The position numbers were made by a program, and so were the translations under genes. A stretch of DNA of 64,000 nucleotides, taken from Streptomyces venezuelae. GTDB taxonomy: Bacteria; Actinomycetota; Actinomycetes; Streptomycetales; Streptomycetaceae. Below the pieces are notes generated by a model. It saw only the letters and a program-made list of their open reading frames with translations. It searched no databases and was not told the origin of the DNA. Where the stretch lies: positions 7,688,001 through 7,752,000 of the forward strand of contig NZ_CP029192.1 in the NCBI RefSeq assembly GCF_008642315.1, in the 5' to 3' direction. Of this stretch, positions 44,587-57,548 are shown piece by piece (the first letter of the stretch is position 1; each line of letters opens with the position of its first letter).

Positions 44587-46794
44587 TCAGCTCTCCATGA
44601 GGGCGGGTACGGACGGTGGGGCCCAGGCCGCGGTGAGCAGTGAGGCGGTGGCCGCCCGGGTGTAGAGGGACGCGGCCAGCCACGCCCCCGCGTAGGCGTC
44701 GGGGTCGGCGGGGCGCAGGCGGCCGAGTGCGTCGTGCTCGCGGTCGGCGGCCGCCGTCGTGAGGCACTGGGCGCACTGGGCTCCCGTGGTGAGGCCCGCC
44801 GCACGCAAGCGGCGCGGGAGGTCGCCGGCGGTGTCCGCGGCGGCGACCCGCCGACCACCGGCCACCGCGCGGTCCACGGCGCGGCGCAGCAGGCCGAGTT
44901 CGGTGGGGAGGGCCGGGGGATCGGCGGCCGGGGGCGGTGTCGCGGTTTCCGTGTGCGGCGGCAGATGCGTGCTGTCGAGGCGCCGCAGGCCGAGATCGGC
45001 GCGGAACGGTCGCCCTTCGTGGCCGGTCCAGGATGCGGCCAGGGCGAGGACGCCGCCGGGCCGGTCGGGGGACACGCGCGCGACCACATGCAGGCAGAGG
45101 CCGGGGCGCGCGGCGAGCAGTCGCAGATTCTCCGCGTACGGCAGTTCGGGGCGCTCGTCCGGGGCGAGCAGGCGGAGCGTCGGCCCGCTGAGGACGGCGA
45201 ACAGGCCGGTCGCGGTGACCGCCCCCCGGAGGAAGACGAGGTCGCCGCCGGCCGACGTCCGCTCCTCGACGGGCGTCGACAACCAGGCGAGGGCGCGCGT
45301 GAGTTGAGTGTGCGGTGGTCGTTGCCACAGGTTGTCGAGCGGGGTCTGCGTCCACGCGGCGCCGGATGCCCGGACCGAGCGCACCTTGCTCCCCGCGCCG
45401 ATCCGGCCGTCCGGTGACACGGTCGGTGCGGTGAGGGTGGCCCCGCCGCCGTCGCCGAGGTCGCGCAGCGACAGCGCGCAGCCGCCGGGGACGGAGGCAC
45501 GCGCCGCCCGCAGGACGCGGTCCGGGCCGCCCGGCGCCACGTCGGCCAGGGTGCGGAGCTCTCCGTCCGGGGCCAGGGCGTAGGTCACGACTCCCGCGTA
45601 GCCCGACGCGGTCACCACCGGTTCCGTGAACAGGCCGTGCAGGCGCAGGGGTTGATCGGGGCGGTACGCACGGCGTGCGGTTCCGGTGAGGACGGGGTCC
45701 GCGGACCGCCGCGTCTTCAGCGCGTGCAGTACGTGGAGCACTTCGGTGACCTTGTGCGTCAGGTCCGCCAGCCTGAACGCCGGGTCCTCGGTGGAGGCCT
45801 CGCCGAGCCGCCGCGCCACGCGCACCGCGGCCGCGGCGGGCCGGTGCAGGCCGGCCAACCGCGCGGAGTGCGCCGCATGCAGAAGCCGCGCACGCTGCAC
45901 GGCCCCCACCCCGCCCCCGGCCCCGCCCGCCCCGACCACCAGAACGTCCACGGCCGCGGCCCAGAGGGCGAGGGCGCTTGTGGTCTGGGTCGGAGTCAGG
46001 GGTGGGTGGTTGGGGGCGGGCGGGGAGTGTGGCGGCTCGGGGTCGGGCGTGGGGTGCGAGAGCTCGCGGTCGAGGGGGGCGTGGGGCGGTTCGGGGGCCA
46101 GCGTGTCGTGCGGCCGTTCGGGGGTCGGCTTGGTGTGCGAGAGCTCGCGGTCGAGTGGGGCGTGGGGCGGCCTGGGGGCCAGCGTGTCGTGGGGCGGCTT
46201 GCGGTCGAGTGTGGCTTGCGGCAGTCCGGGAGGTGGGTTGCCGTGCGGCGGCTCGGGGGAGTCCGTGACGTTCGGTGGCTCGGGGGTGAGCGTGCGGTGC
46301 GGTGGTGCGGGGTCGGGTGAGGCGGTTGGTGGCTTCGGGGTGCCCGGGGCGTGCGGCGGCTCGGGGGCGCGCGGGGCGTTCGATGGCTCGGGGGCCGGAG
46401 GGGTGGGTGGCGGCTCCGAGGGGGTCGTGGGGTGCGGTGGGGCGGTCTCGGCGTCGGCCGGTTCCGGTGGCTCTTCCGCGAGCGGTGCCCGCAGCAGCAC
46501 CGCTGCTCTGTGCAGACAGGCGGGCGCGAGCAGACACGTGCAGGTCACGTCGTCCGCGGCGGTGACGGCACCGTGCGGCGCCGCGAGAGTCACCGCCGTC
46601 TCGTCGTCGACGCGGACGACCGCGCGAATGACGGTGCCGTCACCGTTCTCCGTGGCGTCGACCGGCCAGGCCGCCGCCTTGGCCACGGCGCCGTCGACGC
46701 GTTTGCGCAGCCGCGGCGGCAGCGGGCCGAGAGCGGTGGCGGCCACCTCGGGGGCCACCGGAGGCAGCGCGGAACGTACGGGCTGCTCGGTCAT
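44587..46794 (-). CDS. SWIM zinc-finger protein with Pro-rich repeat linker
   Basis: A 735-residue protein. The SWIM motif (Cys85, Cys87, Cys93, His95 in CTCLLAPACLH) lies in an N-terminal region shared with E. coli YehQ-type proteins; SWIM fingers bind DNA or protein. Residues about 105-275 are a Pro/His/Glu-rich low-complexity linker containing 27-residue repeats. The C-terminal 450 residues are a conserved-looking globular part without recognised catalytic motifs. ATG 46794 overlaps the stop of the VWA-fusion gene by 4 bp. It is the last gene of the MoxR-VWA operon. Confidence 0.82.
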   Translation of the reverse strand: MTEQPVRSALPPVAPEVAATALGPLPPRLRKRVDGAVAKAAAWPVDATENGDGTVIRAVVRVDDETAVTLAAPHGAVTAADDVTCTCLLAPACLHRAAVLLRAPLAEEPPEPADAETAPPHPTTPSEPPPTPPAPEPSNAPRAPEPPHAPGTPKPPTASPDPAPPHRTLTPEPPNVTDSPEPPHGNPPPGLPQATLDRKPPHDTLAPRPPHAPLDRELSHTKPTPERPHDTLAPEPPHAPLDRELSHPTPDPEPPHSPPAPNHPPLTPTQTTSALALWAAAVDVLVVGAGGAGGGVGAVQRARLLHAAHSARLAGLHRPAAAAVRVARRLGEASTEDPAFRLADLTHKVTEVLHVLHALKTRRSADPVLTGTARRAYRPDQPLRLHGLFTEPVVTASGYAGVVTYALAPDGELRTLADVAPGGPDRVLRAARASVPGGCALSLRDLGDGGGATLTAPTVSPDGRIGAGSKVRSVRASGAAWTQTPLDNLWQRPPHTQLTRALAWLSTPVEERTSAGGDLVFLRGAVTATGLFAVLSGPTLRLLAPDERPELPYAENLRLLAARPGLCLHVVARVSPDRPGGVLALAASWTGHEGRPFRADLGLRRLDSTHLPPHTETATPPPAADPPALPTELGLLRRAVDRAVAGGRRVAAADTAGDLPRRLRAAGLTTGAQCAQCLTTAAADREHDALGRLRPADPDAYAGAWLAASLYTRAATASLLTAAWAPPSVPALMES
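46055..46216 (-). repeat. Two 81-bp tandem repeats within the SWIM gene
   Basis: An 81-bp unit starts at 46055 and again at 46136, keeping frame and encoding a 27-residue Pro/His-rich unit beginning PPHAPLDRELSH. A diverged partial unit follows. Units differ at several bases, so this is not a recent assembly artefact. Confidence 0.75.
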
Positions 46795-49700
46795 CCTGTC
46801 GCTCCTGCCATGCGTTCGCCGACCCAGCGGGCCAGTTCCAAGGGGCTCAGCGCCGCGACCGGCATGCCCGCCGCCACCAACTGCCCCGCGACGCCCGTCG
46901 AGTAGCGAGGGCGCCCTGTGTCGTCGAGCGAGGCGCAGCCCAGGACATGGCAGCCCGCGTCGACCAGCGCCCGTACCTCGGACAGCAGCGGGCCGACGGG
47001 TCCGCCCTCCTCGAAGTCGCTGATCAGCACAACGAGGGTGCGCGACGGCACGGTCACGAGGGAGCGGGCGTGGCGCAGCCCGCGAGCGATGCTGGTGCCT
47101 CCGCCGACCCGCACCTCCAGGAGCAGGCCGAGCGGATCGTCCACCTGGTCGGTGAGGTCGAGCACCTCCGTGGAGAAGGCCACGAAGTGTGTGCTGAGCG
47201 CGGGCACCCCGGCGAGCACGGAGGCGGTGAGCGCCGACCAGATCGTCGACGCCTCCATCGACCCGGACACGTCCACGACCAGGACGAGCCGCCAGTCCGC
47301 CGCCTTCCGCGCCCGGGTACGGAACACGGGCCGCTCGGGCAGCACCGTCACCGTGCCGGTGGCCGGATCGCGCCGCGCGGTCGCCAGATTGGCCCGCACG
47401 GTCCGTGCGAGGTCCAGCGGCCCGCCGGGCCGCGAAGTGGGCCGGGGATGCGCGAAGCCGGTGACCGCGGGGCGCAGCCGCGTGGCCAGGGCCTCGGTCA
47501 GCTCCTTCACCAGGCGGGCCACCAGGGGGCGCAACCGGGCGAGTCGGCTCTCCGGCATGCCTCCCGCGTACGACAGGACGGTGCGCAGCAACTCCACGGA
47601 CGGCCGGACCGTCGCGGGGTCGAGCTCCATCGCCGCGTCGATGCGGCCGGCGTCCGCCGCCGCGGCCAGCACCTCTTCCCGTCCTCCGGGGCCGAACAGC
47701 GCGGCCAGCTCCTCCGACCAGCCGCGCACATCGGGGTACGAGGGGTCGGTGCCGCCTCCCGCCCCGTGACCGGCACCTTCCTCGCCACGGGACCCCTCCC
47801 CGCGCCCCGTCCCGTACAACTCGTCCAACGCGGAGGCCACCCGCCCCGCGCGACCTCCCAGCCCCCGCGACCGCCCGAGCAGCAGCCGCCAGCGCTCGTG
47901 GGCGCCGAGGACGGAGTCGGCGGGCGGGGTGGGGGCGGTCCTGGAGGCAGGGATCCGTGCAGGAGCAGACGAGTCGGCTGCGATCTCCCCGTACGAGGAC
48001 GGCACACCCGCCGTCAGCCACGCCGCGGCCAGCGCCTCCCGACCCGCCGCATCCGCCACCGCGAGCCGGGCGAGGGCCGCGTGGTCGGCGACCGCCGTCG
48101 GGAGTGCGTCCGCCGACAGGCCCGTACGGTCCTCCACGGCAGCGAGCATCCGCGTGCGCGCCGCGGGCGACAGCGTGTCGAAACCGGCGCGCAGGGCGGG
48201 CAGTCGGTCGAGGAAGGCGCGGTCCGTGAGGGACTCGACGCGTTCCAGGAGCGGGTCCATGGCCAGGCCGGTCTCCAGAAGCGGCCCCGCGGCCACCAGC
48301 GTGCCCCGCAGGAACGCGCTGAGCTCGGCGCGCAGTTCGGGCGTGGCCGCGCCGTCCACGCGTGACGCGAGCCGGACGCCGAAGCCGTCGGCGTCGCGCT
48401 GCCCGAGCAGCACCTGGGCCGTGCCCGCCGCGCCCCGGATCAGCGGGGTGCCCGCCGCGTCGAGGCGGGCCAGCGCGGCCGCGAGCCGCAGTCCGCCGCC
48501 CTCGTCGGCCGCGCGGACGGCGAGGTCCACCAGCGCGCGGGCGTCCGCCACTTCGTCGGAACCGGCGAGTCCGTCCAGAGCCCGCACCCCCGCCGCGCCC
48601 AACTCCTCACGCACGGCGGCGACCTCGGCGGCCCGCCACCCTTCGGGCAGACCCGGCATCTGGCCCGTCTCGATACGGTTCAACAGGTCCAGCCCCGCGA
48701 GCAACTCCGGAAGCGTGCCGGAAGCGGGCAGCAACTCGGCCGTCTCCGCGAGCCGTTCGGCCGTGAGTCCGGGCAGAGCGCAGTGCGCGGCGTCCGCGAG
48801 GCCGGAGAGGACCTGTGCCGCGGTCGGCCCGCCGTGCCGCACGTCCGCCGCGTGGCGCAGGCGCAACATGCCCGCCGACGCCTGTTCGAGGGTCACGCCG
48901 TGGACGCCCGCGACATCCAGCATCGCCGCCACCGACGGCGTCCACCCCACCGTCCAGCGCGTGGTGAGCGCGGCCGCCTCACCGATCTGGGCGACCTCGC
49001 CCTCCTCCCCGTACGGGACACGACAGACCGCCAGGCGCCGCAGGAACACGTCGCGCCGCAGGTCCCGCTCGGAGCGGTGCGGATCGAGGCGCAGCTCGCG
49101 GCGCGCGGGCGCCTCGGGCGTCGGCAGCGAGAGCGTGGCGAGGTCCGCTTCCACGGCGGGCCCGAGCCCCGACCGGGGTGTGCCCGGGGCGAGCCGTCCC
49201 CGGCGCTCTCCGACGAGCACCTTCTCCATGGCGGCGGCGACGACCCGCCCCCGGCCGAGCAGCTGCCCCTGCGTGAGAACGGTTTGCACGGCCTCGACGA
49301 GCTCCCCGCGACCGGCCGCGGGCAACCCGCGCAGCGCCGCCAAGTCTCGCGCCATCCGCACCACTTCACGCGCGTCCGCGGGACCGCTGGGGTGCCCGGC
49401 GGTACGGACCGCCGCACAGACGCGTACGGCGGTGACCAGCAACAGCTCGTCCAGCCGCCCGCCCTCACCACCCGCCAGGAACACTCCGCGCTGCCACTCC
49501 GGATCCCGGATCCCGGCCGGATACCCGGACCGCTCGTCCAGCAACGGATAGGCATACGGCACGAGGGAGGTGACCACGTCTCCCCCCGCGGACCCGCCCA
49601 CGGGCTCGGTCACCCCTGTACCGAGCCGTCCCGCACCCGGCGCCAGCGCCCCCGCATGAAACGCCCCCACCACGGCCGCGGCCCGACCGCCCGTGTGCTC

Positions 49701-50447
49701 GGCCAGGCGGCGCCGCATATGGGCCTCCCGCGCCAGGTCGTACGCCGACACCTCGCCCTCGTCCCTGCGCAGAGCCCAGCCCACCAACAGCGCGGCCCTC
49801 CGCAGCGCCTCCGCCGCGGCGCCCGGCGCGGCCGTCTCGACGAGACGGTCCCACAGGTCGTCCTCCGGGCGCAGTCCGGCCCGCGCCCGGAGCGCGGCCA
49901 CCAGACGGCCCCGGCCGGAGTCACCGACCTCGACGACCGACGCCGCCGACGCCGGTACCGCCTCCGACGCCCTCTCCGCCGAATCCCGGCACGCCAGCGG
50001 CAGGTCGAACGGCACCACCGGCACCTTCGCCTCCCGCGCCCACCGGATCGCCGCCAGCTCCGGCGAGAACTCCGCGAACGGCAGGAACACGAGCCTGCCC
50101 GCGCCAGCACCCGCACCGGTGGAGCCCGCCAGCGCGACGGGCGGCACCGTTTCCGGGTCCCCCAGGTGATCGAGCCAGGGTGCGAACTCCTCCGGCAGCT
50201 CCACGAACAGCACATCGGGCGCCGCTGCCGCCAGCATCCGGGGCAGGGCGGCGGCGAGCGCGGGGGAGTGGTGCCGCACACCGATCAAGTACGGGTCACG
50301 ACACCCGGCCAGCTCCTCGACCACCACCTCCGGCGACGGCTCCGGCCCAAGATCCCGACGCCCAGCTACAGCCACATCCGCCGCTACAACCGCCGCCGCA
50401 CCCCCAGCCGCACCCCCACCCTCACCCTCACCCTCACCCAAGATCAT
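46791..50447 (-). CDS. DUF5682-VWA fusion protein
   Basis: A 1218-residue protein in one uninterrupted frame. Residues 1 to about 770 match my recollection of the DUF5682 family (ELAGCRDPYLIGVRHHSPAL, FVELPEEFAPWL, VVGAFHAGAL). The C-terminal part ends in a von Willebrand A domain with a complete MIDAS: DVSGS at 1059-1063, Thr 1118 in GGGTS and Asp 1144 in ISDFEEGG. In many actinomycetes I expect these as two genes. ATG 50447 is chosen, with GGGAG 7 bases upstream and a 14-bp overlap with the MoxR gene. The residues just after the start are a Gly/Glu repeat. VWA proteins typically serve as MoxR partners. Confidence 0.82.
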   Translation of the reverse strand: MILGEGEGEGGGAAGGAAAVVAADVAVAGRRDLGPEPSPEVVVEELAGCRDPYLIGVRHHSPALAAALPRMLAAAAPDVLFVELPEEFAPWLDHLGDPETVPPVALAGSTGAGAGAGRLVFLPFAEFSPELAAIRWAREAKVPVVPFDLPLACRDSAERASEAVPASAASVVEVGDSGRGRLVAALRARAGLRPEDDLWDRLVETAAPGAAAEALRRAALLVGWALRRDEGEVSAYDLAREAHMRRRLAEHTGGRAAAVVGAFHAGALAPGAGRLGTGVTEPVGGSAGGDVVTSLVPYAYPLLDERSGYPAGIRDPEWQRGVFLAGGEGGRLDELLLVTAVRVCAAVRTAGHPSGPADAREVVRMARDLAALRGLPAAGRGELVEAVQTVLTQGQLLGRGRVVAAAMEKVLVGERRGRLAPGTPRSGLGPAVEADLATLSLPTPEAPARRELRLDPHRSERDLRRDVFLRRLAVCRVPYGEEGEVAQIGEAAALTTRWTVGWTPSVAAMLDVAGVHGVTLEQASAGMLRLRHAADVRHGGPTAAQVLSGLADAAHCALPGLTAERLAETAELLPASGTLPELLAGLDLLNRIETGQMPGLPEGWRAAEVAAVREELGAAGVRALDGLAGSDEVADARALVDLAVRAADEGGGLRLAAALARLDAAGTPLIRGAAGTAQVLLGQRDADGFGVRLASRVDGAATPELRAELSAFLRGTLVAAGPLLETGLAMDPLLERVESLTDRAFLDRLPALRAGFDTLSPAARTRMLAAVEDRTGLSADALPTAVADHAALARLAVADAAGREALAAAWLTAGVPSSYGEIAADSSAPARIPASRTAPTPPADSVLGAHERWRLLLGRSRGLGGRAGRVASALDELYGTGRGEGSRGEEGAGHGAGGGTDPSYPDVRGWSEELAALFGPGGREEVLAAAADAGRIDAAMELDPATVRPSVELLRTVLSYAGGMPESRLARLRPLVARLVKELTEALATRLRPAVTGFAHPRPTSRPGGPLDLARTVRANLATARRDPATGTVTVLPERPVFRTRARKAADWRLVLVVDVSGSMEASTIWSALTASVLAGVPALSTHFVAFSTEVLDLTDQVDDPLGLLLEVRVGGGTSIARGLRHARSLVTVPSRTLVVLISDFEEGGPVGPLLSEVRALVDAGCHVLGCASLDDTGRPRYSTGVAGQLVAAGMPVAALSPLELARWVGERMAGATG
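50417..50440 (-). repeat. Tandem hexamer repeat at a gene overlap
   Basis: Four copies of CACCCT (the last ending in A) read as GGGTGA-type hexamers on the coding strand. They encode the Gly-Glu run at the start of the DUF5682-VWA protein and include the stop codon of the MoxR gene (50434-50436). Slippage in hexamers would preserve frame. Confidence 0.7.
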
Positions 50448-51585
50448 CACGCAGCTCCCACAGCGTCCGCCACAGCCCCGCGCCGTCCTCCGCGCGCCGC
50501 CGCACCGGACCGTCCCAGTAGCCGAGCAGCCGCGCGTGGTCGGCCGGGTCGTCCTTGCGGACGGTGCCGAGGAGGTGGCCCGGCAGCGTACGGACGACAT
50601 CCCGCCCGTCGCCCAGATACGCCGCCCCGATCCCCATGGACGTGGCGACCTGCACCGCCTCCGCCGTCGACATGACCGTCGAGGGCCGCTCGACCTCCCA
50701 GCCCTCGGCGCTGCGCCCGGAGCGCAGGTCACGGAACGCGGTGACCAGCGCCTCCAGGACCGTGTCGTCGACGGAGAACGCGGCGCCGGAGCGGGCCAGC
50801 GCCGCCGTGGCCTGGCTGCGCACCAGCTCGGTCTCGGCGGCGAGGTCGCCGATCGGGCCGACCGTCTCGAAGTTGAAGCGCCGCTTGAGGGCCGCGGACA
50901 TCTCGGAGACGCCCCGGTCCCGCAGGTTGGCCGTGGCGATGAGGGTGAAGCCGGGCACGGCGTGCACCGTGCCGTCGTCGCCGTCGAGACCCGCCAGTTC
51001 CGGTACGGAGACACGGCGTTCGGAGAGCAGGGACACCAGGGAGTCCTGCACCTCGGGCAGGCAGCGGGTCACCTCCTCGACCCGCGCCACCGCGCCGCGC
51101 GCCATCGCCGTGAGCACCGGCGAGGGCACGAGGGCCTCCCGGCTCGGGCCCTTGGCGAGCAGCATCGCGTAGTTCCAGCCGTACCGCAGCTGGTCCTCCG
51201 TGGTGCCTGCGGTGCCCTGCACGGTGAGCGCGCTGGTGCCGCACACGGCGGCGGCGAGCAGTTCGGACAGCATCGACTTGGCGGTGCCCGGCTCGCCGAC
51301 GAGCAGCAGTCCGCGCTCGCCCGCGAGCGTCACCACACAGCGCTCCACCAGCTGCCGCTCGCCCACGAACTTCCCGGAGACGACGAGGCGTCGGCCCGCC
51401 CCGTCGACCAGCTCCTCGCCGCTCGAACCGCAGACGAAGAGCACCACCGCGCGGGGCGTCAGACGCCAGCCGGGCGGGCGCGGCCCGTCGTCGTACGCCG
51501 CGAGGAACGCCAGCTCCTCCGCGTACCGGTCCTCGGGCAGCTCCATCTGCCGCCCGACCGTGGGCTCCTGATCCTGCCGGTTCAT
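50434..51585 (-). CDS. MoxR family AAA+ ATPase
   Basis: A 383-residue AAA+ ATPase. Walker A GEPGTAKS is at 97-104, a Walker-B-like strand VARVEEVTR at 167-175, sensor 1 IATANLRDRG at 216-225 and an Arg finger region ALKRRFNFE. The Walker B Asp-Glu is read as Glu-Glu, a small departure. MoxR ATPases act with VWA partners as chelatases or complex-assembly chaperones; the partner is the next gene. It closely resembles YehL-type ATPases in layout. ATG 51585 overlaps the previous stop by 4 bp. Confidence 0.9.
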   Translation of the reverse strand: MNRQDQEPTVGRQMELPEDRYAEELAFLAAYDDGPRPPGWRLTPRAVVLFVCGSSGEELVDGAGRRLVVSGKFVGERQLVERCVVTLAGERGLLLVGEPGTAKSMLSELLAAAVCGTSALTVQGTAGTTEDQLRYGWNYAMLLAKGPSREALVPSPVLTAMARGAVARVEEVTRCLPEVQDSLVSLLSERRVSVPELAGLDGDDGTVHAVPGFTLIATANLRDRGVSEMSAALKRRFNFETVGPIGDLAAETELVRSQATAALARSGAAFSVDDTVLEALVTAFRDLRSGRSAEGWEVERPSTVMSTAEAVQVATSMGIGAAYLGDGRDVVRTLPGHLLGTVRKDDPADHARLLGYWDGPVRRRAEDGAGLWRTLWELRDDLG

Positions 51586-54500
51586 CGCCTGCCTCCCCTG
51601 CGGCCGCCCCGCGTCTCGAACTCCTCGTAGCCGGGCACGTCCCCGTCGACCACCCGCTGCCACGCCCGTGCGTACAGCTCGGGCACCGGGCACCCGGGCA
51701 CCTCGAACCGGAAGCCCGGCTCCGGGAGCAGCGGCTTCTTCCAGCTCTCCACGGGCAGCAGGGGCGCGCTGCGGTCGTGCCAGCCGCCGGGCAGGAAAAG
51801 CGTGCGCCCCGCCCGGGACCGCTTGGCCTCCACCACCAGGTCGGTGGCGGCGAGTTCCGCTCTGGCCTTCTTCAGACGGGCGGGCTTCCAGCCGGTCCAG
51901 GCCGCCTGGCGGCGGTCCGTCGGGTCGGGAAGCGCGAGGACCATCAGGTAGAGCACGGCCGCGTCCTCGGAGAGTTCGAGGCGGCGGGCCGCCTCGGGCA
52001 CCAGGTCGGGTGCGCCGACCAGTGGGTTCTGCGGTGCGCCCGCGGGCCCGTCGGCGGCGAGCAGCGTGGCGAACTCGTCGCTGATCAGGGTCCGCAGCGC
52101 CTTCAGCGCGTCGCTGTTGTCGGCGAGGCCGATGAGGAGCGTCAGTGCCGGGTGGTCCGGACCGCCCTCGGCGCTCGCGCCCGGCAGCAACGCCGACGGG
52201 CGCACCCACACGGCGTCCCAGTCGTTGCGGTGCTGCATCGGGGCGAGGACCAGCGCGGGGCCCGCGGCCACGAGCCCGAGGCCGTCCTCGCCGCCGCGCG
52301 GCGGCAGCCCGTACGCCTCCCGTACGTGTCCGCCGGTGACCTTGCCGTCCGTGCCCCAGCTCACCCGCAGGTCGAGCAGCAGGCCCGGGTCGGCGAGCCG
52401 TTCGCGGAGGAGGCGCAGCGTCTCGGGCAGCACCGGGCGCAGAGGGTCGCCGTACGGCAGGCGGTAGGCCAGCCAGCGCAGCATGTCCACGTACGGGACG
52501 AGATCGCGCCCTTCGAGGAGGGCTTCCGGGTCCTTCGGGCGCAGTCCGTCGCCGAGCGTCTGCTCGGTACGCCCGGTGAGTTCGGGCCGCGCCTCGGGGT
52601 TGAGGACGTGGTCGAGGATGGGACCCGGGCCGATCTCGGCGACCACCTGGGCGACCAGTTCGGGTGGGGCGACGCGGTGCCTGCCGCGGACCGCCAGCCA
52701 CAGCTCGCTGGTGGCGTCCAGTGCGCAGCCGGTCGTCCAGAGGGTGTTGACGCCGTTCGGGGCGGCGGGCAGCAGGGATGCCGTGAACTCCTGGCGCTGG
52801 GGGAGGGGCAGATCCTGCAGCGCCCCGCGCGCGGCCTTCGCCTCCGCACTCTTGGCGCCGAGCGGCTTCAGGAACTCGGCGGGGAGCAGCCCGTCCCTGC
52901 CGAACCTCCCCAGACCGGGCATGCCGAGCAGCAGCAGCGCCCCGGTGATCGGCCCGACGCCGATGCGCTCGGCGAGTTCCGTCGCCTGCTCCGGCCGGTA
53001 GGGCAGCGGCCCCCGCTCCCGCAGGAGCGCGAGCAGCCGCCGCAGCGAGGGCGCCCGGCGCGGGTCGTCCGGCTCGCCGTACACCTCGGCAGAGGTGAGG
53101 GCGAAGCCTTCCCACGCGCCGAAGGCGCCGGACGGGTCGTACTCGATGCCGTTCCAGAACGCGTCGTCCCCCTCCACGCGCTGGCACGACACGATCAGCA
53201 TGCGCCGCGCCCCCGCGGTGAGGACCTCGCCGACACGCTCCGGCCGGGCCTTGTACGACGTCTTGAGCCGCACCGCCCGCAGCCGCCCGCGCGGATCGAC
53301 GAGGACCGAGTCGTCATCGGCCCGCACCGCGAGGACGGCGTCGAGGAATTCGAGGAGGGCCGCGCGGTGTGCGTCCTCCGTCGTCGGCGCGGCGGCCCGC
53401 ACGGCGAGCGCCGCCATACCGGGCCCGGCGAGCGTCAGCCAGGCCACGCCGCTGCTGCCGAGACCCGCCTTGCCGTCCGGCGCCTTGGGGCCCAACACGC
53501 GGCGCAGCGCGGCGAGTTGCTCCATGGCGGAGGTGGCCTGCTCGGACCTGCCGTAGTAGTGGTACGACCCGGAGAAGTGCTGCGTGCCCGTCAGGCCCAC
53601 CGTGGCTTCGCGCAGCACACTGTCGAGGGCGTGCCGCACGGTGGGCGCGGTGTCCTGTCCGGCCTCCCTCTGCCGGTGCGCCCGCTCGGCGAGCGTGGCG
53701 ATCCGCTTGGCGCAGCGTGCGGTCTCCTCGACGAGCCCGGCCACGCCCAGCGCGAGCGCTTCGTCGGTGACGGCGGGCAGCAGTCGCGCGACGGCCTCGG
53801 CGGGGCTCTCGCCGCCGCGGACGGCGGCCAGGAGCGCGGCGGCATCGGTGTCGGTCACCGCGCGGAGCGCCGCGGAGCCCCGCTCGTCACGAGGCCGCAG
53901 CGCGTGCCAGTACCAGAGGGGCGGCAGGACACGGGTGCCCGCCGCGTGGGCGCTGCCCCGGTCGCCGATCTGCACGCGGGCGACGGCCACGCCGTCCGCG
54001 TCCCGCAGTTCGACCACCGACTCGTTCCAGCCGAGCTGGACCGGGTGGAGCACGGCGCCGGCGGGCAGCCGCAGGGGAGCGGTCGGGCGGCCGGCGTCCG
54101 TCGCCGGGCCCGAGGTGCCGTCGACGGAACACGCCCTGCGTGTCCCCGACTTCTCGTCGTACGCCACCCACCAGCCGAGCAGCCCGTCCTTGCTGCCGAA
54201 CGGGGAGCTCTCCAGGCCCGGCTCGACGGGCAGCAGCCTGCAGTGCTTCTCCTCCAGGCGCACGCCCGCCGCCGCCCCGGCGAGCGCGGAGTCGAAGAAC
54301 GCGGGCACCGAGGCCCGGCCCCGGCGGGCGCCCGCCGGGTCGTACTCGTACCAGCGGTCCTCGTGCAGCACCCAGGACGACACACCGTCCGAGGCGACCT
54401 CGCGGCGCTGCTCGGCGAAGGAGGTGTCCCCGGGGTGCACGGGACGCGCGCCGTACCACCGGCTGCCGTCCGGGAGCGGCAGCGAGACCGTACCCGCTCC

Positions 54501-56492
54501 GTACCACCCGTCCTGGAGGCCGCTCGGCTTGAACACGTCCGCGGGGCTGCCGGACCACACGGCCCGCCGCTCGCCGCCGTGCCCCGACGCGATCAGCCAC
54601 TGCCCGTCGACGAAACGCACCGTCGGTTCGCCGTACCCCGAGGACTTCGACGGCAGGCTCAACGTGCGCTGGTCCAGGACGCCTTCGGCGCCGACGAGTG
54701 CTACCTGCGTGCCGACCCGGACGATGAGCCCGGGCCACGCGTCCGCGCACTTGTACCACTGGCCGTCGAGGTGAGGATGGTGCCGGCCCGCCGCCATCGT
54801 GTTGACGTCGCCGAGCGTGCCGAGCGCCTCCTCCAGAGCAGGCCAGCCCAGCTCGTCGAAGATGCCCGACCGGAGCGAACGCGCGAGGACCGGCGCCGGG
54901 TCGAAGGTGACGATCCGCTCGACCGCTTCGGGCGCGGTGGCCAGCACGGCCGGCTTCGAGAACCGCGAGACGTTCCGCAGCAGCGCGTCCAGGCCCGGCA
55001 GTCCGATGGGCCGGGCGAGGTCCTCGGCGCGGTGTGCGAGCCAGTCCGCGAGGACCGTGCGCAGCGCCGGATGCTCCGCGACCCGCTCAAGGCGTGCGGA
55101 GGGCCCGGAGGCGGGGCCGTCGGCGGTCGAGAGGTTCTCCACGCCCTCCCGCAGCAGCGGTGCGAACCGGGCGTCCGAGGTGAGCGCCACCAGATCCCTG
55201 GCGCCCGCGCCGTCGTCCTGCAGCCAGTGCCGCAGCTCCAGGCCGCTCGCCTCGCCGGGCGGGTCGGCGACCGGCACCCCGGCCGCGAGCGCGGCGTCGA
55301 GGAGATCCAGGTCCGTCTCGCACCGCCAGCCGCGGTCGACGACGAGCCGCACCGGGGTGCCGTCCGCGATCAGCCGGGGCGCGAGCCGCTCCACCAGGGC
55401 CAGTTCGGCAGGGAGCCGGTTCGACGTGCGCCAGCCGCGCTGCCGGTGCCGCGCCCACGCGCCCAGCCACTCGGCGGCGCTCGCCGAGCCGTCGAGCAGC
55501 AGATCGATCGCCCCGCACCGGTCCAGGAGCGCGAGCCACGCCTCGTCGAAGGCGTCCTTGGAGTCGCCACCGGCCGTCGGCAGGAGCGTCAACAGCCGCT
55601 GCCGCACCGCGGGATCGGACTGCGCGAGCTCGGCGAGGGCGGGCAGCGCGGACTTCCAGAAGCTGCCCGCCGCACGCGTCATCGCGCCCGAGTGGATGAT
55701 CTCCCCGAGCAGCGAGCACTCCTCCGCGCGGGCGGTGAGCCCCGCGCCCTTCGCCAGCCGCCGCAGATCCTCCAGCATGCCCGCGTACGGGGCGATGCCC
55801 GCCGCACACCGCTGCAAGGAGAGCGTCCTGAACTGTTCGTAGGCCTCCTGGCCCGACAGCCGGGCCGCGAGACCCTTGGCGTGTTCGCGCAGCACCTTGC
55901 CGCTGAGCGCGCCCACGCCGGCGAACTCCAGGAACACCTCCCGCATCCGGTCCTCGTCGACCTCCAGCGCGTGCCGCTGCTCGGCCGCCCGCGCCTTTCC
56001 GAAGAACACCGAGGCCTGCTGGGCCGATTCGGCCGCGAGGAAGAGCCGCGCCACCTGTTCGTAGTACGTCGGCAGGAAGTGCGGCGCCGAACGGTCGAGG
56101 CGGTCCCCGATCTCGTCGAAGCCCTCCTTGGCCAGACCGGGCTTGCCGGTGACCAGGCGGGCAAGGCGCTCCATCTCCTTGACCACGGCGAGCGCGTGCC
56201 GCCCGTTGGCCGGGTCGTTGACCAGCGCCCAGGCGGGGAAGCCGAGCGACCGGCGCTGCACGCGCCCCACCGCGACGCTCGTGGGCGCGCCGAACCCCAG
56301 GTACTCCAGGGCGAGGTCCTCGGCGGGACCGATCGCCTCCGGCACCAGCCGCACCACCGTGCGCCCCTCCAGGACCGGGTGCGCGTACGCCCGGGCGGTC
56401 AGCGTGTCACCGGCCGCCCCTTTCCCGGACGCATCGTCACCGGCCGGTGGCAGCACCGCTCCCGCCTCCAACAGCTTCTGTTCCCCGTTCAC
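51582..56492 (-). CDS. Large uncharacterised protein of the MoxR-VWA operon
   Basis: A 1636-residue protein without a signal peptide, transmembrane segment or recognised catalytic motif. Residues about 1-620 look like alpha-helical repeats. About 630-960 are Trp- and Gly-rich with beta-strand patterns (DGQWYKCADAWPGLIVRVG, RWYGARPVHPGD, WVLHEDRWYEYDP) suggestive of a propeller. The rest is mixed helical. I recall similar proteins being labelled DNA-binding in databases, but I see no clear DNA-binding motif. GTG 56492 is chosen because it overlaps the upstream stop by 4 bp; earlier in-frame starts only read through the neighbouring gene. It is a probable scaffold or target for the ATPase pair. 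Confidence 0.8.
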   Translation of the reverse strand: MNGEQKLLEAGAVLPPAGDDASGKGAAGDTLTARAYAHPVLEGRTVVRLVPEAIGPAEDLALEYLGFGAPTSVAVGRVQRRSLGFPAWALVNDPANGRHALAVVKEMERLARLVTGKPGLAKEGFDEIGDRLDRSAPHFLPTYYEQVARLFLAAESAQQASVFFGKARAAEQRHALEVDEDRMREVFLEFAGVGALSGKVLREHAKGLAARLSGQEAYEQFRTLSLQRCAAGIAPYAGMLEDLRRLAKGAGLTARAEECSLLGEIIHSGAMTRAAGSFWKSALPALAELAQSDPAVRQRLLTLLPTAGGDSKDAFDEAWLALLDRCGAIDLLLDGSASAAEWLGAWARHRQRGWRTSNRLPAELALVERLAPRLIADGTPVRLVVDRGWRCETDLDLLDAALAAGVPVADPPGEASGLELRHWLQDDGAGARDLVALTSDARFAPLLREGVENLSTADGPASGPSARLERVAEHPALRTVLADWLAHRAEDLARPIGLPGLDALLRNVSRFSKPAVLATAPEAVERIVTFDPAPVLARSLRSGIFDELGWPALEEALGTLGDVNTMAAGRHHPHLDGQWYKCADAWPGLIVRVGTQVALVGAEGVLDQRTLSLPSKSSGYGEPTVRFVDGQWLIASGHGGERRAVWSGSPADVFKPSGLQDGWYGAGTVSLPLPDGSRWYGARPVHPGDTSFAEQRREVASDGVSSWVLHEDRWYEYDPAGARRGRASVPAFFDSALAGAAAGVRLEEKHCRLLPVEPGLESSPFGSKDGLLGWWVAYDEKSGTRRACSVDGTSGPATDAGRPTAPLRLPAGAVLHPVQLGWNESVVELRDADGVAVARVQIGDRGSAHAAGTRVLPPLWYWHALRPRDERGSAALRAVTDTDAAALLAAVRGGESPAEAVARLLPAVTDEALALGVAGLVEETARCAKRIATLAERAHRQREAGQDTAPTVRHALDSVLREATVGLTGTQHFSGSYHYYGRSEQATSAMEQLAALRRVLGPKAPDGKAGLGSSGVAWLTLAGPGMAALAVRAAAPTTEDAHRAALLEFLDAVLAVRADDDSVLVDPRGRLRAVRLKTSYKARPERVGEVLTAGARRMLIVSCQRVEGDDAFWNGIEYDPSGAFGAWEGFALTSAEVYGEPDDPRRAPSLRRLLALLRERGPLPYRPEQATELAERIGVGPITGALLLLGMPGLGRFGRDGLLPAEFLKPLGAKSAEAKAARGALQDLPLPQRQEFTASLLPAAPNGVNTLWTTGCALDATSELWLAVRGRHRVAPPELVAQVVAEIGPGPILDHVLNPEARPELTGRTEQTLGDGLRPKDPEALLEGRDLVPYVDMLRWLAYRLPYGDPLRPVLPETLRLLRERLADPGLLLDLRVSWGTDGKVTGGHVREAYGLPPRGGEDGLGLVAAGPALVLAPMQHRNDWDAVWVRPSALLPGASAEGGPDHPALTLLIGLADNSDALKALRTLISDEFATLLAADGPAGAPQNPLVGAPDLVPEAARRLELSEDAAVLYLMVLALPDPTDRRQAAWTGWKPARLKKARAELAATDLVVEAKRSRAGRTLFLPGGWHDRSAPLLPVESWKKPLLPEPGFRFEVPGCPVPELYARAWQRVVDGDVPGYEEFETRGGRRGGRR

Positions 56493-57388
56493 CGTGCTCC
56501 CGCCCCGTCCTCGTCGGACTCGCCGTACTCGTTCTTCACCACGCGGCCCGCGTGCACAAGGGCCGCCATCCGGACCCCCTCCGACCAGGCCACGGGCCCC
56601 ACCTCGCCGAGCGGCACCCGACGGCCGCCCGCGGCCCGCCATTCGAGCCCGCCCGTGCGGGTCTCGCTCTCGGGATAGTCGTCACCGAGCCAGTACGCCG
56701 CTTCGAGTGCGCGGCCGTCCTCCGTCAGCGCGCACACCGCGTAACCTCCGCGCACGCGGTAGCCGTAAGCCGTCGCTCTCGCCGTCGCGTGCCGCAGCTC
56801 CTCGAACGCCGCGTCGGCGTACGCACCCCACTCCAGGGCCGCCGCATCGACGGACTCCGGGCGCGGCCACACCTCGCGGAACAGCTGGTCCAGGCCCTGC
56901 TCGACGCCCAGTTCGGCGGCGAACTCCCGCAGATCCGCCAGGTCGTCGAGGAGCACCGGATGCGGTATCAGGATCTGCTCGGCGTCGAGCCGCACCGAGT
57001 CGCCGTCCAGGTCGACGATGCCCAGGCCCCGCTCCGGGTCGGCGTCCCGCAGGAACCCGGCACGCGCCACATCGGCGTCGCCGTCCGCGCCGACCGGCGC
57101 CACCACCAGGTCCCGCAGCGCCCCTTGCCAGGCCGCGTCGGGCCATACCTCGACGAGGAGCCGTGCGGGCACGGGCAGCGAGCGCACCAGCCACGTGTCG
57201 ACCTGGGCGCGGCACTCGCGCTCGTGCCGCTCAAGCCACTCGGCGAGCTGGCGCAGCCGCACCACTTCGGCGTCGTCGCGCAGCTTCGCGGGGACCTGTT
57301 TCAGCATGCGCCCCGCGGCGTTCCTGCACAGCACCCGGGTGCCGTCCAGGGTCACCGCGTACCCACCCGCCGCCTCTACCCAGCTCAT
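56489..57388 (-). CDS. DUF4132 domain-containing protein
   Basis: A 299-residue protein. The central part (PVPARLLVEVWPDAAWQGAL, then ILIPHPVLLDDLADLREFA and GVEQGLDQLFREVW) fits the DUF4132 domain, which in E. coli forms the C-terminus of MolR/YehI. Function unknown; no catalytic residues are assigned. This appears to be the first gene of the MoxR-VWA operon. The start is ATG 57388 behind GGGAGGGG. Family assignment is by recalled pattern. Confidence 0.7.
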   Translation of the reverse strand: MSWVEAAGGYAVTLDGTRVLCRNAAGRMLKQVPAKLRDDAEVVRLRQLAEWLERHERECRAQVDTWLVRSLPVPARLLVEVWPDAAWQGALRDLVVAPVGADGDADVARAGFLRDADPERGLGIVDLDGDSVRLDAEQILIPHPVLLDDLADLREFAAELGVEQGLDQLFREVWPRPESVDAAALEWGAYADAAFEELRHATARATAYGYRVRGGYAVCALTEDGRALEAAYWLGDDYPESETRTGGLEWRAAGGRRVPLGEVGPVAWSEGVRMAALVHAGRVVKNEYGESDEDGAGAR

Positions 57389-57548
57389 GACAGGACCCCT
57401 CCCAGACCTCCTGCTTTCCATGTCGATCACAGTAGGTGAGGGGTCTGACAATTCTGCCGCCGGAGGTCGCGAGGTCGCGGGGGCCGCGGGTCCGCTGGGG
57501 AGGCGGGCGCCGCCGTTTGGAAACGACGGCGCGGGAAACCCGGTCGGC
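57389..57548. promoter_or_regulatory. Divergent control region, MoxR-VWA operon and VOC gene
   Basis: 160 bp between divergent genes. A locally AT-richer segment (about 57416-57456) carries TTGTCA on the minus strand, a possible -35 for the operon, but I cannot fix a matching -10. No strong inverted repeat is seen. Confidence 0.35.

Follow-up and report, generated by a model that had tools for sequence, protein, structure and literature searches.

A YehL-type MoxR operon of Streptomyces venezuelae as an actinomycete branch of the Escherichia coli yeh family, with a PafBC/RecA-NDp-type promoter motif

Introduction

In Escherichia coli K-12, a cluster of genes is arranged in the order yehF, yehH (a pseudogene), yehI (encoding a DUF4132 protein), yehK, yehL (MoxR), yehM, yehP (VWA) and yehQ (SWIM), and the yehF-yehI region is presumably the locus historically named molR. 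In the literature searched, DUF5682 was not mentioned and DUF4132 was mentioned rarely. Here we describe a related five-gene operon in a stretch of 64,000 nucleotides of the Streptomyces venezuelae genome (GCF_008642315.1, contig NZ_CP029192.1, positions 7,688,001 to 7,752,000), hereafter the window, which covers 7.69-7.75 Mb of an 8.94-Mb single-contig genome. The operon is an actinomycete branch, designated type B below, of the E. coli yehI/L/M/P/Q family, and a promoter motif of the PafBC/RecA-NDp type precedes it. From these sequences we propose that it may encode an AAA+ machine of the YehL/M/P/Q family that is induced by DNA damage and remodels its target, perhaps with hydrolase activity, a proposal for which we regard the chances as evenly balanced.

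Results

The operon belongs to the E. coli yeh family

Five open reading frames (ORFs) on the minus strand, running from 57388 to 44587, encode proteins of 299, 1636, 383, 1218 and 735 amino acids (aa), and consecutive genes overlap by 4, 4, 14 and 4 bp. From 5' to 3' they encode a short DUF4132 protein, a giant protein (the giant), a MoxR ATPase, a DUF5682-VWA fusion and a SWIM protein. The features of the operon are as follows.

57429..57451, minus strand: PafBC/RecA-NDp-type promoter motif TTGTCAGACCCCTCACCTACTGT, ending 40 bp ahead of gene 1
56489..57388, minus strand: gene 1, short DUF4132 protein, 299 aa (domain at 56759-57313, PF13569, E 4.4e-25)
51582..56492, minus strand: gene 2, the giant, 1636 aa, GTG start, no Pfam match
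53970..54752, minus strand: all-beta section of the giant, residues ~581-841, probable beta-propeller
50434..51585, minus strand: gene 3, MoxR AAA+ ATPase of the YehL clade, 383 aa (AAA domain at 50875-51312; AAA_5, E 1.8e-38; Walker B E-E)
46791..50447, minus strand: gene 4, DUF5682-VWA fusion, equivalent to YehM-YehP, 1218 aa (DUF5682 match at 47574-50246)
49644..50291, minus strand: N-terminal alpha/beta domain of DUF5682 with the invariant residues
46821..47489, minus strand: VWA domain with intact metal-ion-dependent adhesion site (MIDAS; DxSxS, T, D)
44587..46794, minus strand: gene 5, SWIM zinc-finger protein, 735 aa (motif CTCLLAPACLH at 46510-46542)

An earlier note on this DNA had given the same five genes, sizes and overlaps, and we find them at these positions. 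Its list of domains (MoxR-VWA-SWIM-DUF4132-DUF5682) corresponds neither to the gene order nor to one domain per gene: the 299-aa gene carries DUF4132, the 383-aa gene encodes MoxR, the 1218-aa gene combines DUF5682 with VWA and the 735-aa gene carries SWIM. The DUF4132 and DUF5682 assignments themselves hold in profile searches (E 4.4e-25 and E 5.8e-182). The single 1218-aa ORF matches both PF18934/DUF5682 (E 5.8e-182) and PF05762/VWA_CoxE (E 1.9e-63) and overlaps the MoxR gene by 14 bp, thus DUF5682 and VWA are encoded adjacent to MoxR. The Walker A, MIDAS and zinc motifs are all intact across the operon proteins. The Pfam SWIM match in gene 5 is sub-threshold (E 0.017; 15.1 bits against a cut-off of 19.6), and its motif CxCx5CxH is intact and kept in 23/23 type B and C homologues examined. 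No sigma-70-like promoters or terminators were found for the operon.

Four of the five genes have counterparts in E. coli. The window MoxR (P0003) is 47% identical to YehL, YehM proved to be a DUF5682 protein (E 2.4e-98), gene 4 matches both the YehM and YehP genes, and the C-terminal ~270 aa of YehI align co-linearly with the gene 1 protein (hhalign E 4.6e-5, probability 69%). Layouts in 33 fetched stretches define four types: type A, MoxR-DUF5682-VWA with a SWIM gene nearby; type B, the five-gene layout of the window with DUF5682 and VWA fused; type C, the E. coli layout; and type D, with VWA upstream of MoxR and DUF5682. The type-B gene order was found at 16 further loci, with exceptions at L013, where a contig end cuts inside the giant, L018, where the SWIM frame is short, and L028, where a 2.9-kb gap holds a second giant match. 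A FastTree phylogeny was built from 107 MoxR sequences, with RavA and one MRP sequence as the root (a second MRP outgroup, L130, is absent and three taxa were left out). In this tree type B (17 taxa) is monophyletic with support 1.0 and is sister to type C, the clade with E. coli YehL (54 taxa), with support 0.995; type A (22 taxa) is sister to type D with support 0.998, and the deepest root support is 0.0. All 110 of the aligned YehL-type MoxR sequences carry E-E in Walker B, whereas RavA and the MRP outgroup carry D-E.

We then surveyed the best 80 of 567 confirmed DUF5682 stretches in named genomes, 69 of which had sufficient flank; these loci were picked for DUF5682, so that the counts show association and not prevalence. 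MoxR is adjacent to DUF5682 at 68/69 loci and VWA is present at 68/69, no more than 1.5 kb away in 65, while one locus, L097, has neither. SWIM was found at 53/69 and a DUF4132/YehI protein at 51/69. By record titles, the loci span Actinomycetota, Proteobacteria, Bacteroidota, Planctomycetota, Acidobacteriota, Myxococcota and others. MoxR-DUF5682-VWA is therefore a near-invariant core. DUF5682 was detected in 36/41 genomes, the source genome counted, and a PF18934 family search of the genus found DUF5682 of some type in 117/121 genomes among the matches listed, which score at least 648 bits, above the window's own copy. At a locus with YehI-type genes in Kitasatospora phosalacinea (L085:8143-12681, plus strand), DUF5682 and VWA also share one frame, possibly a second independent fusion.

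The earlier note had taken the genes for a conserved, NTP-driven MoxR-VWA set homologous to the yeh genes, and the identity to YehL and the MoxR tree bear this out; the co-occurrence that it expected outside this strain is seen in the 16 further type-B loci, in the DUF5682 core across phyla and in the genus survey. It had also called the system undescribed, which applies to its function, not known in E. coli either, and not to the gene set, already known there.

The giant and the short DUF4132 protein are additions of type B

The giant is present at 0/69 of the flanked loci from named genomes, and the giant and the short DUF4132 protein are additions of type B to the core. Relatives of the giant number 1134 at E 0.001 among 7985 scored candidates, and in the 121 genus genomes a short DUF4132 gene lies no more than 300 bp upstream of 47 of the 48 near-full giants. 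Its section of residues ~581-841 is probably a beta-propeller. The giant gave no meaningful match to PDB sequences, and the idea that it is an N-terminal YehI homologue was rejected, with no sequence-level support (hhalign probability 0.4%).

Other arrangements of these two proteins were observed. A single 1619-aa ORF at L137:8354-13213 (minus strand) carries both a DUF4132 domain and the giant, and L142:8305-12816 (minus strand) may be a second such case. Solo giants of ~1380-1650 aa occur in L132, L133, L134, L138, L139, L140 and L141, 20-kb stretches without any other match to the system. At L136:12722-19989 (minus strand), a DUF4132-giant pair adjoins a cluster of Hsp70, TPR and Ser/Thr-kinase genes.

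A PafBC/RecA-NDp-type motif precedes most type-B operons

The upstream regions of 16 type-B operons (the window and 15 loci) were compared, and an element common to most of them corresponds to the RecA-NDp/PafBC motif, given as a longer consensus, tTGTCRgtg-N8-TannnT, in PMC5656591 and as a core, TGTC(AG/GG/AC)-N10-TA-N3-T, in PMC8151990. In the window, the site 40 bp before gene 1 is the sole match to the core on both strands, and the reversed pattern has none. The longer motif was found with at most 2 mismatches before 15/16 type-B operons and 2/85 background upstreams (Fisher p 7e-15); the remaining operon, L019, has 3 mismatches, and no match to the reversed pattern has fewer than 3. The published core stands before 12/16 type-B operons and 3/81 background upstreams (p 1e-9); the 16 loci are related, so both p values overstate independence. 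Both backgrounds consist of upstreams outside these systems and differ in size through differing excluded zones. No consistent SOS box (GAAC-N4-GTTC) was found before type-B operons.

The motif also extends to the other types. In a first background of 291 upstreams that included the systems, 11 had at most 2 mismatches and 9 at most 1, and for 7 of these 9 the gene that follows belongs to a type A, C or D locus. Within stretches of ~20 kb, sites with at most 1 mismatch were found at 5/6 type A, 3/6 type C and 4/5 type D loci. Those of types A and C are chiefly just upstream of SWIM, MoxR or YehI genes, with two opposed sites at 4/6 type A loci, one toward SWIM and one toward MoxR; the type D sites face a gene that lies ahead of VWA. 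At the 48 named loci that are not actinobacterial, such sites number 2, as do matches to the reversed pattern.

Across the source genome there are 24 perfect RecA-NDp sites (L147-L170) and none of the reversed pattern. The frames just downstream were picked by script and matched to families, and 16 of them are recA, uvrA, uvrB, pcrA, radA, dnaX, ogt, ung, thyX, ribosomal S6 and genes for a RarA-like ATPase, a DinG/YoaA-like helicase, a Hel308-like helicase, a RecD2 HHH protein, a PD-(D/E)XK nuclease and an SNF2-type helicase. The SWIM gene of the type A locus in the source genome is also behind a perfect site. The other 7 sites precede genes for a sigma factor, a transporter, a TPR protein, a VWA protein and three proteins without family match. 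The VWA-like protein gene, a sub-threshold Pfam assignment, lies at L170:388-1446 (minus strand). In Mycobacterium smegmatis without pafBC, MoxR1 and MoxR2 are reported among the lowered proteins (PMC5656591), and the main text of PMC8151990 names no MoxR, SWIM or DUF4132.

Damage links of yeh relatives in other lineages

In Deinococcus radiodurans, DdrO is reported to target the DUF4132 protein DRA0166, and mitomycin C to raise the level of this protein in a manner that depends on IrrE (PMC8533742). In E. coli, a published table of SOS genes includes yehF, with values up to 1.14 (PMC11002266), and molR is listed among SOS genes (PMC3978071). A LexA-like box, AACTGGATAAAATTACAGGG, was observed in E. 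coli K-12 at L012:6448-6467, with 13/20 matches and its end 7 bp before yehF; two further weak LexA-like matches occur elsewhere in this 26-kb stretch, and 19 other proteobacterial loci showed only scattered, weak and patternless matches.

These links bear on a wider reading, doubtful in our estimate, in which the whole MoxR-DUF5682-VWA-SWIM family would be a previously unrecognised machine of the DNA-damage response, brought independently under the control of PafBC in actinomycetes, of LexA in E. coli and of DdrO in Deinococcus. Proteins at damaged DNA would be cleared or cut by a TIKI-fold peptidase into which the AAA+ ring feeds, and the giant propeller scaffold of type B would serve a second class of targets. 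The name molR suggests a different role, since it was given for molybdate use (cited in PMC8533742), and the locus could then be a regulator of molybdate or cofactor use. We consider this very improbable: moeA and moeB-type genes of D. radiodurans are reported as unresponsive when the DUF4132 gene responded (PMC8533742), and no molybdenum family appears by name among the 25 of 69 flanking families shown.

DUF5682 resembles TIKI/TraB-like hydrolases in its invariant residues

An alignment of 166 DUF5682 sequences has invariant R-H-H, E, D, W, E, R, R-E, M and G-x-x-H, in P0004 numbering H59-H60, E83, D148, W199, E204, R240-E241 and G261-H264; the conservation of R-H-H, P and SPE is biased because 80 of the 166 rows were found by scan patterns containing them. 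The spacing in YehM is His-24-Glu...Arg-27-His, compared with 26 and 24 in the TraB-family protein YbaP and a reported 28 and 29 in TIKI endopeptidase (PMC6254334). His, Glu, Arg and His are in register with the TIKI pattern, and the second Glu has no sure counterpart. In the structural model of DUF5682, 18 of the first 24 ten-residue blocks have a predicted local distance difference test (pLDDT) score of at least 85; the two His sites and the Asp are at or just past strand ends, whilst the Glu is part of a strand and the Arg part of a helix. Aligned with YbaP relatives by hhalign, DUF5682 has its motifs in register at E 0.026, compared with 0.18-0.78 for controls, and 2/200 column shuffles reach that score. 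A viral TraB-family model was matched at rank 18 (E 0.11, probability 0.99, TMt 0.43; aligned region not displayed), and 4/120 listed DUF5682 homologues carry the UniRef name "ChaN family lipoprotein". DUF5682 had no match among PDB sequences, and its Foldseek/VIA PDB lists are dominated by other domains. In relatives' genomes the ChaN family was found in 2/31 and the TraB family in 0/60, so no local TraB set was available for a profile. Taken together, these results leave the link between DUF5682 and TIKI/TraB as suggestive only.

The same invariant residues would suit a metal site equally well, and the VWA domain is of the VWA_CoxE type (E 1.9e-63). Published accounts give pairs of MoxR and VWA proteins a role in the maturation of complexes (PMC3893208, PMC7159879), and the operon could accordingly encode a chaperone for assembly or metal insertion, of the CoxD/E or chelatase kind, whose DUF5682 His and Glu hold metal for a target enzyme without hydrolysis; its damage control would then reflect a client that is a repair enzyme. 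We judge this unlikely, though deserving serious attention. No conserved client gene was seen beside the core, though no systematic search was made, the flanking families of type-B loci differ from one another, and the order and spacing of His-Glu...Arg-His recall TIKI hydrolases.

Neighbours of the operon and comparison with conflict systems

The neighbours of the operon are a glyoxalase-like gene and genes for a CotH kinase, solute-binding proteins, an M81 peptidase, a ROK regulator and a flavin mononucleotide (FMN) oxidoreductase. PADLOC gave two chance-level matches on the five operon proteins, both to MoxR (E 0.032 and 0.1), and the bpMoxR match of the window MoxR is below cut-off (22.4 vs 27 bits). 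The 62 ORFs that flank 15 type-B loci gave matches to 36 PADLOC models, and the 25 models shown each hit one member, the pattern expected from a single protein kinase. The flanking families differ between loci, none being in more than 3/62 ORFs among the 25 of 69 families shown. A defence island is not supported by the ordinary neighbours and the PADLOC pattern of the flanks.

The general likeness to MoxR-vWA ternary systems (PMC7159879, the main text of which contains no YehL, TraB or SWIM) would fit an anti-phage or conflict system that is induced when phage damages DNA, and so would the patchy presence of the type-B locus in the genus, with a near-full giant in 47/121 genomes. Here, however, the VWA is fused to DUF5682 and the propeller-like section is in the separate giant, not in a propeller-VWA fusion as in the beta-propeller ternary systems. 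No known effector domain was recognised by Pfam or PADLOC in the five proteins and no variable effector slot was seen, although DUF5682, as a putative hydrolase, could itself serve as effector. These results, together with the chance-level PADLOC matches, the single-kinase pattern and DUF5682 of some type in nearly all genus genomes, make this explanation improbable. The earlier note had suggested a stress or conflict system: the promoter motif narrows the stress part to a probable response to DNA damage, and the conflict part is not supported by PADLOC or the neighbours.

Discussion

A proposed mechanism and the evidence against it

In the DNA-damage-induced remodelling machine that we propose, DNA damage would lead PafBC, or an equivalent activator, to start transcription at the motif at 57429-57451. 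The YehL-type MoxR ring would assemble and work with the VWA domain through the Mg-bound MIDAS of that domain, DUF5682 and VWA being parts of one polypeptide. Hydrolysis would fall to the N-terminal domain of DUF5682, which would resemble TIKI/TraB enzymes and would most simply be a peptidase. Three components would select the target: the giant, with its helical parts and probable propeller, the SWIM finger and the short DUF4132 protein. That target would most likely be a protein on DNA that is damaged or being replicated, and it would be extracted, cleaved or released. Binding of a target through the SWIM finger or the giant, which the earlier note also suggested, is likewise a conjecture.

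Several observations weigh against this proposal. On regulation, the window site, which is in sense orientation and matches the core, has 2 mismatches to the longer consensus, both at lower-case positions; 4/16 type-B operons (L018, L019, L023 and L029) lack the published core; and a site with at most 1 mismatch is at only 12/32 named actinobacterial loci (reversed pattern 0/32). Moreover, an initial search, as reported in a 2022 paper, suggested that the PafBC motif of M. smegmatis is unconserved in S. venezuelae (PMC9380542). The 24 perfect sites in the source genome, many of them before classical repair genes, differ from that statement. Near-full giants are in only 47/121 genus genomes, which is unusual for a core repair function, and the D-to-E change in Walker B might alter ATPase activity. 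On the hydrolase, the hhalign probability for the TIKI link is 1.9%, and the E value of 0.08 from a less diverse profile does not improve on that of a control (0.11). Membership of DUF5682 in Pfam TraB, ChaN or Ere was rejected, hmmscan giving one TraB match at a chance-level E of 0.46 in 17 proteins and 0/10 in further ones. No TIKI chain was recognised among the 50 listed of 837 PDB structure matches, which does not thereby exclude the fold.

The yeh genes are widespread. With the motif at loci of all four actinomycete sub-types and the damage links of the E. coli and Deinococcus relatives, the family would gain a biological role that is simple to test. The motif sites of the source genome also bear on the open question of PafBC motif conservation in S. 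venezuelae, as raised in PMC9380542.

Comparison with known systems

DUF5682 resembles the TIKI/TraB/ChaN/Ere superfamily in its paired His, a Glu and an Arg, of the same order and similar spacing, but it has no significant profile similarity to the YbaP family and possesses a long helical C-terminal part and a VWA partner. The vWA-MoxR ternary conflict systems (VMAP, iSTAND, FtsH and beta-propeller types; PMC7159879) likewise combine MoxR, VWA and a conserved third component, and a probable beta-propeller is found here as well. In contrast to those systems, the third component here is DUF5682, the propeller-like part is on a separate giant and an effector slot was not seen. RavA-ViaA of E. 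coli is also a MoxR ATPase with a VWA partner, whereas RavA has D-E in Walker B instead of E-E and no DUF5682 or SWIM is annotated beside ravA-viaA. With the mycobacterial PafBC/RecA-NDp regulon, the operon shares the motif and its orientation, and repair genes such as recA are behind the motif in the source genome; that regulon was defined in a different genus, and the link drawn here comes from the motif.

The E. coli yehF-yehQ cluster has homologous MoxR, DUF5682, VWA, SWIM and DUF4132 proteins. Unlike it, type B fuses DUF5682 with VWA, shrinks the DUF4132 protein to 299 aa and adds the 1636-aa giant, and its upstream motif is of the PafBC type, whereas yehF in E. coli is preceded by a LexA-like box. 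Type B is therefore a new variant of the E. coli yeh set, its closest known relative.

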